Shown: positions 38,103-39,703 of the stretch, piece after piece
How the letters are laid out: each line of letters opens with the position of its first letter
Numbering within the stretch: position 1 is the first letter of the stretch
DNA from: Candidatus Avelusimicrobium bubulum
GTDB lineage: Bacteria; Elusimicrobiota; Elusimicrobia; Elusimicrobiales; Elusimicrobiaceae
NCBI GenBank assembly: GCA_902798835.1
Contig: CADBYN010000004.1
Span: 1-64,000, forward strand
DNA: 64,000 nt
Reading direction: 5' to 3'
The notes under the pieces: model-generated
Database searches by the model: none
What the model saw: the letters and a program-made list of their open reading frames with translations, nothing else
Told to the model about the DNA's origin: nothing
Made by a program: the position numbers and the translations under genes

Positions 38103-38741
38103 CTATAAACCAAAAATTTTTACTAACACATTAACGATTAAAAACGTCGGCGGAAAAATAATATATTTCACCACGCCCGTCAAAATCAGAGCAACCACAA
38201 TCCACATTCCATAGCGGCCTACAAACAAGTCATACTTCATAGCCGTCTGCACAGGCAGTAGTGCCGTTGCCACGCGCCCGCCGTCGAGCGGTGGAATAGG
38301 AATTAAATTAAACACGGCCAAAAACACATTGATAAACATCCCGTATTGCAAGATGTGCATCAGCGCCAGCACCGTATGCTGCCCTAAATGCGCGTGCAGC
38401 ACGAGGGTCAATTTTAATAAAGCCGCGCACAACGCCGCCAGTATCAAGTTAATTGCGGGCCCGGCAAACGCCACCTTGCCCATATCTTTACGCGGGGACG
38501 GCAAGCGCACCGGATTGACGGGAACGGGCTTGGCCCAGCCAAACAGCGGCCAACCGAATAACCAACACACCGCAGGCACCAATATCGTACCCACTAGGTC
38601 GACGTGATAAATGGGGTTTAATGTCAGGCGCCCGCTCAAATACGCGGTATCATCCCCCATGCGATAGGCCACATAGCCGTGCGCGAACTCGTGCAGGATG
38701 ATTGAAAAAAACAAGACCGGTAGTAAGACAATAATATCCAT
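38103..38741 (-). CDS. Site-2 protease family membrane metalloprotease (M50)
   Basis: 212 residues with about five membrane segments. The zinc motif is HEFAHGYVAYRMGD (HExxH) close to the N-terminus, and the third ligand region is NLIPIPPLDGGRV. This is the short, PDZ-less form of S2P/YwhC type found in many bacteria beside trpS and scpA. It cuts within or near the membrane; substrate unknown. Its ATG comes only 6 nt after an extended -10 sequence, so the message may be leaderless. It is the first gene of a run of eleven. Confidence 0.93.
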   Translation of the reverse strand: MDIIVLLPVLFFSIILHEFAHGYVAYRMGDDTAYLSGRLTLNPIYHVDLVGTILVPAVCWLFGWPLFGWAKPVPVNPVRLPSPRKDMGKVAFAGPAINLILAALCAALLKLTLVLHAHLGQHTVLALMHILQYGMFINVFLAVFNLIPIPPLDGGRVATALLPVQTAMKYDLFVGRYGMWIVVALILTGVVKYIIFPPTFLIVNVLVKIFGL

Positions 38742-38747
38742 ACTAGT

Positions 38748-38756
38748 ATTCTAGCA
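38748..38756 (-). promoter_or_regulatory. Extended -10 promoter of the site-2 protease operon
   Basis: Minus strand TTGCTAGAAT: a TG at one base before TAGAAT. Only 6 nt separate it from the ATG at 38741, so transcription probably begins at or beside the start codon and the first message end has little or no leader. No good -35 is seen. Confidence 0.5.
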
Positions 38757-38824
38757 ATTTTACACCGGTTTAGGGGATATTTTTTCGTACGCGCGCGAAA
38801 GTCGAAACAATTGACTCAAAATTA

Positions 38825-38833
38825 TGTTACAAT
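38825..38833 (+). promoter_or_regulatory. Extended -10 promoter before the structured prepilin leader
   Basis: TGTTACAAT at 38825-38833 is an extended -10. A TTGACT at 38811 is too near (11 nt) to serve as its -35. A start at about 38840 would give a leader of about 215 nt that includes the structured segment and ends at the prepilin ATG 39055. Confidence 0.5.
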
Positions 38834-38863
38834 AAAACAGTAGTTAAAAATTACAGATTATTT

Positions 38864-39041
38864 GCTGGAAGTGCAGGGAGAGCCTGCGCAGCGCAAGGCC
38901 GTAAGGCCAAGCACATTTCCGTCCACCGAATAATCGTCTGCTTTTGCGTCTGCCCCGTAAGGGGTGGACGGGCGACGATTATTGCACGGGTTACGGAAAT
39001 GGCTTATGCGATAGTTCGTCGTCTTTTTTTGCACTTCCGCA
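38864..39041 (+). ncRNA. Structured RNA leader or small RNA before a prepilin gene
   Basis: Paired segments are seen at several distances: GGAAGTGCA (38867-38875) with TGCACTTCC (39030-39038); CATTTCCGT (38914-38922) with ACGGAAATG (38993-39001); AATAATCGTC (38929-38938) with GACGATTATT (38974-38983); and hairpins GGCC-GTAA-GGCC (38897-38908) and CCCC-GTAA-GGGG. CCGTCCACC (38919-38927) can also pair with GGTGGACGG (38963-38971), which crosses or excludes the other helices. The stretch has no convincing gene and stands between an extended -10 and the ribosome site of the prepilin. It matches no riboswitch class that I can name. A separate RNA such as a 6S-type molecule is the alternative. Confidence 0.6.
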
Positions 39042-39054
39042 AGAGAGGGAAAAT

Positions 39055-39690
39055 ATGGATACAAAAAATCAAATCAACCGTCATTCCCGAAAGTTTTTAT
39101 CGGGAATCCCCACCGCATTGAAAATACAAGGAGGAGATCCCCGATTACAGGCCTCGGGGATGACGTCTCATGGTTTCACGCTCATTGAGCTATTGGTCGT
39201 GGTGCTGATTATCGGCATTTTAGCCGCTATTGCCCTGCCGCAATACCAAAAAGCCGTGGAAAAAAGCCGACTAGCAGAGGCCTTGCAAAATATATCAACT
39301 ATTCAACAAGCAGTAGATTTACATGTTTTAGTCAACGGATACCCATCCAACGGAAGATTTTTTCTCTTGAGTGGCGGAATAGCAGAAAATAATTACAAAA
39401 TAGGTCGACTAGATATTGATTTAGAAAAATCATTAACTTGTCGGGATTACCAAGTTTGCAGCAGTTCCTCCTTTTCATACTCCGCTTACTGTCAACCCAC
39501 TGGATGCGAAATAGACGTCATCCGAAGTAAGGACGGAGATTCAGAAAATGAAAGACGAGATTATGGGCTGTGGCTCAACAAATCATCCACTACAGGGGAA
39601 TGGACAAAAACTTGCGAAGTAATGCAAGGTCCTGAATACGCTGAAAAAATCTGCGAAAGTTTACAAGAACAAGGATGGGAGCAGCTCTAA
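39055..39690 (+). CDS. Type IV prepilin with long leader containing a repeat element
   Basis: 211 residues from the ATG preceded by GAGAGGG. The class III signal is TSHGFTLIELLVVVLIIG, cleaved after Gly40 so that Phe becomes residue 1, with Glu5. The conserved helix ends in ALPQYQKAVEKSRLAEAL and a pseudopilin-type domain with four to six cysteines follows. Normal leaders of this family are about 4-10 residues (compare MHKG in the pilin at 41145..41672). Here it is 40 because an 87-bp palindromic repeat is inserted in frame. An inner ATG at the end of the repeat would give a short leader MTSHG, so that two starts are possible. The gene is the only minor-pilin type gene on this strand here and follows the structured leader. 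Confidence 0.9.
   Translation: MDTKNQINRHSRKFLSGIPTALKIQGGDPRLQASGMTSHGFTLIELLVVVLIIGILAAIALPQYQKAVEKSRLAEALQNISTIQQAVDLHVLVNGYPSNGRFFLLSGGIAENNYKIGRLDIDLEKSLTCRDYQVCSSSSFSYSAYCQPTGCEIDVIRSKDGDSENERRDYGLWLNKSSTTGEWTKTCEVMQGPEYAEKICESLQEQGWEQL
39079..39165 (+). repeat. 87-bp palindromic repeat element inside a prepilin gene
   Basis: Begins CGTCATTCCCG and ends CGGGGATGACG, so the outer ends are inverted repeats. Two inner hairpins are CCCGA...TCGGG and CCCCGA...TCGGGG. The length is a multiple of three, without a stop in the prepilin frame (peptide ...HSRKFLSGIPTALKIQGG...). A second, diverged copy lies at 61001..61089 in the other orientation. Resembles small palindromic elements such as those inserted in Rickettsia genes. 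Confidence 0.8.
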
Positions 39691-39703
39691 TTCAAGCAAC
39701 CAA

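Follow-up and report, generated by a model that had tools for sequence, protein, structure and literature searches.

The leader of a type IV prepilin gene in the window (the whole stretch of 64,000 nucleotides analysed here, from Candidatus Avelusimicrobium bubulum) is, judging from comparative sequence analysis and with a probability of roughly 0.83, a cis-acting four-strand transcription attenuator. Its strands X, Y, Z and W (Table 1) can pair as X:Y together with Z:W, the latter being the hairpin of an intrinsic terminator, or as Y:Z, enclosed by the helix P4; comparison of homologues gives good support to the four helices, to their exclusion of one another and to the terminator. With these homologues, the leader appears to form an undescribed family of cis-regulatory RNAs, of which 53-131 copies can be reached in one genome of 1.1-1.7 Mb. 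Our best reading is a new family of signal-gated transcription attenuators, riboswitch-like, with a putative ligand. We know of no riboswitch class whose number of copies per genome comes near these values.

The leader occupies positions 38840-39054 (215 nt). On one side of it begins an M50 site-2 protease gene on the minus strand (38103-38741), on the other the prepilin ORF. Its minimum free energy is -97.7 kcal/mol, against -63.6 +/- 4.1 in 200 dinucleotide shuffles, none of which equalled it (z = -8.3): the preliminary description of this DNA had called the leader strongly structured, and it is more so than was claimed. The same description rightly placed it between an extended -10 element and a ribosome site, here ahead of the ATG at 39055, recognized the downstream gene as a prepilin, and reported two GTAA hairpins, which lie at 38897-38908 and 38953-38964. 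A generic promoter and terminator consensus scan gave no match at the leader, including no full sigma-70 -35/-10 pair; the terminator escaped it because its loop exceeds the length limit of the scan. The rest of the window holds no further copy of the element.

Table 1. Features of the attenuator and of its surroundings, in window positions.
Feature	Position	Strand	Evidence
Accessory cassette: promoter, leader and prepilin ORF	38798..39691	+	missing as one unit from the closest relative examined
Extended -10 promoter element TGTTACAAT	38825..38833	+	sequence; RNA start about 38840
Strand 1 (X), pairs with Y (OFF)	38856..38868	+	covariation; partner swaps 0/2000; RNAalifold consensus of long subtype
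Hairpin P2 (GTGCAGG/CCTGCGC, loop GAGAG)	38871..38889	+	98% paired over 100 distinct sequences; covariation in 7 pairs
Hairpin P3, GTAA loop	38893..38912	+	covariation
P4 5' strand, copy-specific lock helix	38914..38922	+	two-sided changes in 9/9 pairs; 97% paired; private in 40/40 paralogues
Strand 2 (Y), pairs with X (OFF) or Z (ON)	38923..38935	+	covariation; partner swaps
P5 5' strand, part of Y:Z antiterminator	38929..38938	+	93.5% paired; two-sided changes in 7/10 pairs
Hairpin P6, GTAA loop, between Y and Z	38948..38969	+	covariation; two hairpins instead in long subtype
Strand 3 (Z), pairs with Y (ON) or W (terminator, OFF)	38971..38985	+	covariation; partner swaps
P4 3' strand, within terminator loop	38993..39001	+	covariation; partner swaps; own-partner match
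Strand 4 (W), terminator 3' strand	39008..39023	+	covariation; partner swaps
U7 tract of intrinsic terminator	39024..39030	+	U tract immediately behind W in nearly every homologue
GCACTTCC, can pair with 38867-38874	39031..39038	+	duplex kept in most subtype A members
Type IV prepilin ORF, 211 aa	39055..39690	+	Pfam N_methyl, E = 1.7e-7

Compensatory changes among homologues, on which the preliminary description had made its proposal depend, are overwhelmingly present. In 12 homologues, the structure is 92% paired and has 21 pairs with two-sided changes, matched by none of 500 shuffles; the terminator structure is 96.9% paired, and both alternative structures outscore shuffles and slides. In 101 sequences, helices P2-P6, to which the alignment was fitted, reach a covariation score of 0.728 against 0.249 when shuffled. 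The helices X:Y and Z:W are absent from the covariance model, and therefore provide a fairer test: they are 84% paired, with a score of 0.268 against 0.173 +/- 0.005 in shuffles, and slides are only 28-57% paired. An APC-corrected scan of all column pairs ranks pairs of P4, P2, P3 and P6 highest, and the X:Y pair 38864-38927 emerges from it unprompted.

The exchange of partners between members leads to the same helices. Among 59 members less than 80% identical, the pairing energy with the strand's own partner surpasses all 2000 partner swaps for X:Y, Y:Z, Z:W, P4 and P2; the control pairings X:W and X:P4b give no signal, and were rejected as extra states. Sets of strands change together among the 101 aligned members, for example X GATTATTTG with Y CAAATAATC, X CTGTTTTTGG with Y CCAAAAACAG, and X GACTTGTTTTCGG with Y CCGGAAGTAAGTC. 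For the long subtype, RNAalifold yields the OFF state unaided. The terminator segment 38971-39030, folded alone, has an energy of -25.2 kcal/mol (z = -5.7), and practically all homologues have such a terminator, Z:W followed by a U tract, between promoter and start codon. We thus find an antiterminator that shares a strand with the terminator, excludes it, and is backed by covariation, as befits an attenuator.

The preliminary description had also seen a switch in two helices that cross each other. One of them, AATAATCGTC/GACGATTATT (38929-38938/38974-38983), is real and conserved; the other, CCGTCCACC/GGTGGACGG (38919-38927/38963-38971), is present in the sequence and not conserved, with no covariation; paired cells make up 51.4% in 12 homologues and 53.0% in shuffles. 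Competing helices do exist, but the decisive ones had gone unreported: they are 38856-38868/38923-38935 and the terminator 38971-38985/39008-39023 with its U7 tract.

Staged folding of growing transcripts, a thermodynamic snapshot rather than a kinetic simulation, made with a program that excludes pseudoknots, predicts X:Y in 101 of 101 members before Z is made, and Y:Z in 100 and P4 in 97 of the 101 before W is made. In the complete leader, the terminator prevails in 70 of 101; the remaining 30% or so, which are not predicted to favour it, count against our reading. The copy in the window is predicted to be near ON/OFF balance, leaning ON, with 8.8 expected pairs for Y:Z and 3.0 for Z:W. In subtype A, a further helix, 39031-39038/38867-38874, is possible only in read-through RNA; one member (L042) has it compensated, and it might stabilise the 5' end of the mRNA.

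These states suggest the following sequence of events. Behind a moving RNA polymerase, X would pair first with Y, enclosing P2 and P3. Once transcribed, Z would displace X, and P4 (38914-38922/38993-39001) would close around Y:Z and the hairpin P6 that lies between its strands. Should Y:Z and P4 last until the polymerase is beyond the U tract, transcription of the gene would follow (ON); should W recapture Z, X would pair again with Y, and the Z:W hairpin with its U7 tract would terminate transcription and release a short RNA (OFF). Transcription presumably ends at the U tract, and a common intracellular signal would set the balance between the two states; the output would be a coordinated expression of prepilins and of other surface or DNA-modification genes in gut Elusimicrobiota.

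What the signal may be is suggested by the conserved unpaired bases, a small set, fewer than in most riboswitch aptamers, found mostly beside P4 and after X. The best conserved are GCA and UCC beside the 5' strand of P4, and RGGUY and GCUY beside its 3' strand. Since they lie at both ends of P4, an effector would most likely grip the ON fold, which would make a gene-ON device of the riboswitch type. Given an attenuator, we put the chance that it is a small-molecule riboswitch at about even. The effector could be a nucleotide second messenger, for example a cyclic dinucleotide, because the regulon consists of surface genes and GGDEF proteins are universal in the genus (66 of 66 genomes). The presence of GGDEF proteins was discarded as a predictor of the element: being universal, it does not tell apart genomes with and without the RNA.

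The family was delimited by sequence search. A DNA search of the genome of the window and of 60 relatives found similar leaders, 63-87% identical, directly upstream of prepilin genes at differing loci, and a covariance model, R1, was built from 12 of them. It matches 39 of 66 genomes of the same genus, further genera of this family and also a second family (f21) in the phylum, with essentially no matches elsewhere among 340 Elusimicrobiota genomes. Loci sharing only the promoter and the first strand led to a long subtype of 212 positions, with X = CTGTTTTTGG and Y = CCAAAAACAG, whose model, R2, matches 83 of the 149 genomes of the order, nearly all within the family; in this order-wide search, a count of 16 in a genome stands for at least 16. 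With looser limits, R2 finds 6 copies in the genome of the window, and 94, 54, 131, 63 and 53 in G026, G070, G069, G101 and G109, these counts being matches at E <= 1e-4 among up to 150 candidates scored per genome, and G026 being 72% complete. The two models together trace the element across Elusimicrobiaceae and Endomicrobiaceae, with 8 copies in the genome of the window and 53-131 in five relatives; most genomes are draft assemblies, E-values of the models are rough, and copy numbers depend on the threshold.

In a pattern scan covering 85,000 species genomes, the carriers were Elusimicrobium and other Elusimicrobiaceae, mostly from animal gut and faeces, and Endomicrobium. Its matches in Chitinophagaceae, Cytophagales, Poribacteria and Saprospiraceae (L151, L153, L164, L166) were not confirmed by the covariance model and were taken as chance. 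Outside the two host-associated families, single weak matches (G227:C32:1594-1761, and one in G125) are possible distant members.

The genes downstream of the element are varied. A prepilin motif lies at most 500 nt downstream in 62 of the 120 R1 copies examined; in 61 prepilin cases the element is 17-98 nt from the start codon, with a median of 36. In G069, a stretch of 385 kb contains 39 copies, of which 38 directly precede a prepilin gene (two of these assignments were read by eye from the ORFs) and one precedes another ORF. Other R1 copies stand before GT8, GT2, GT9/TibC-type and LicD proteins; before beta-barrel outer-membrane proteins, lipoproteins and a PH-domain membrane protein; and before an acyl-carrier-like protein, a sulfatase-domain protein, a dynamin-like (LeoBC-like) GTPase and a type III DNA methyltransferase. 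In Endomicrobiaceae, copies precede beta-rich secreted proteins, GT61 and UbiA prenyltransferase, as well as EcoRI-type and HsdR_N-methylase fusions, a type III methylase and a radical SAM protein. A device specific to pilins is thus rejected, since glycosyltransferases, outer-membrane proteins and others share the element. Pili, LPS and type I/III restriction-modification systems are phase-variable classes in other bacteria (review PMC11868660), and the classes found downstream of the element are those that other bacteria phase-vary.

Several loci have features of their own. Before one glycosyltransferase-like gene with a TibC N-terminal domain, two attenuators stand in tandem (L110, G111:C6, 1501-1689 and 1736-1923). 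Near its 5' end (39077-39166), the prepilin ORF of the window contains a hairpin-forming repeat of the type GTCATTCCCG...CGGGAATCC, which is translated in frame and gives the prepilin an unusually long leader peptide; a similar insert occurs in L040/L032. A TA-rich -10 is found at a similar distance in many homologues, not all, and the copies without an obvious promoter count against the best explanation. Members L033, L035, L074, L082 and L090 have no clear -10, and carry an AGGAG-like motif 30-50 nt upstream of strand X. The genome of the window (1.35 Mb) contains about 65-70 prepilin-like genes, mostly dispersed. In about ten others among them (L184, L185, L194, L197, L199, L200, L203, L205, L206, L189), the promoter spacer contains a homopolymer of T10-T15, CTTGAATC-T(n)-CTTATAAT, which lies about 90-142 nt upstream of the FTLIE motif; the length of the tract differs between copies, and these tracts are probably slipped-strand phase-variable promoters.

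The helix P4 behaves differently from the other stems. Dozens of attenuators in a genome have the switching core in common, and yet among 40 copies sampled in G069 no two share a P4 5' strand; its mean pairwise identity is 0.34, against 0.47-0.92 for the other stems. In the long subtype, where P4 lies outside the R2 model, each P4 strand finds its best match in its own partner, in all 40 copies sampled. Between near-identical leaders, which are likely orthologues, P4 is mostly retained: mean identity is 0.94 where the remainder is at least 90% identical. This diversity may be plain compensatory drift, or selection for copies that do not cross-pair. It is a long shot that P4 serves as a private address, by which a cognate RNA acting in trans, or something else that reads P4, could switch single attenuators; if so, P4 would make for an RNA-addressed repertoire of surface proteins.

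Other explanations of the same data must be weighed. The most serious keeps the attenuator and lets a protein, an RNA-binding antiterminator or terminator factor, set its state instead of a small molecule; we consider it possible, and clearly less probable than not. The unpaired conserved bases are few, helices with conserved flanks could serve as a protein site, and the regulon consists of surface genes; however, P2 and P3, inspected by eye, do not show the two-hexaloop pattern of ANTAR targets. The near-even balance predicted for many copies, including that of the window, would also suit an attenuator without effector, in which a fixed and partly leaky terminator gives a low basal level or cell-to-cell noise. 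We hold this to be unlikely: if the terminator were simply weak, covariation of four exclusive strands would not persist across more than 100 copies, and noise, not being heritable, is no substitute for phase variation.

Up to 131 copies per genome could instead point to a mobile or repetitive DNA element, a recombination handle that swaps pilin cassettes and whose structure is incidental. In the relative G009, the M50 protease and ruvC are 71 bp apart; the left flank is homologous up to 38797 and the right flank from about 39692 on, and promoter, leader and pilin gene therefore came or went as one block, at this one locus a clean insertion without obvious target duplication. In one member (L177), a transposase gene follows. 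Compensatory changes in exclusive helices, the placement of the terminator and the distance to the start codon nevertheless indicate selection on RNA; the viral contigs, phages and plasmids searched have no copies, and paralogues are diverged (mostly 50-75% identical) rather than fresh copies, which makes this explanation very improbable. A known riboswitch class, such as c-di-GMP-I or II, is the least credible of all. c-di-GMP riboswitches are found before pilin genes elsewhere. The related cGAMP class is the subject of PMC8835794. However, the members of the subtypes that were scanned have no Rfam match, at gathering scores or at relaxed E-values, and both sequence and structure refute a known class; a new fold might still bind the same ligand.

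The preliminary description had found no c-di-GMP-I (GEMM) core and suggested a possible new class, and both points stand. None of 4227 Rfam 15 families reaches its gathering score, and RF01051 has no match on 38750-39250 even at E up to 10; a genus-wide search with RF01051 also gave none, but control genomes were silent too, so that only the direct scans count. Weak matches to mir-145, MIR171 and Dictyostelium SRP were dismissed as hairpin look-alikes in bacterial DNA. We found no description of the element in the open-access literature. Read in this way, the attenuator would reveal how Elusimicrobiota that live with hosts control a prepilin repertoire of unusual size, about 65-70 genes in the genome of the window, and one leader with one terminator is a ready in vitro handle for an effector search.

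The strand logic is that of trp-type attenuators, in which 1:2 with 3:4 terminates and 2:3 antiterminates. Unlike these, the leader in the window has no visible leader-peptide ORF (inspection found no ATG or GTG with a ribosome site before strand 1), its strands 1 and 2 enclose two covarying hairpins, and 2:3 is reinforced by the lock helix P4. With transcriptional riboswitches that exchange terminator and antiterminator (such as the ZMP riboswitch, PMC7337938; review PMC10907184), the element shares a 5' leader, a structured domain and a strand exchange into a terminator before the gene; it differs from them by the lack of an Rfam match and by its very many copies per genome. The c-di-GMP-I riboswitch shares the gene context of pilins and surface genes, but differs in fold. 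Finally, phase-variable contingency loci (PMC11868660) involve the same functional classes, with heritable DNA change where RNA folding would act here: the control of contingency-type genes (pili, glycosyltransferases, outer-membrane proteins, restriction-modification) would extend to an RNA switch.
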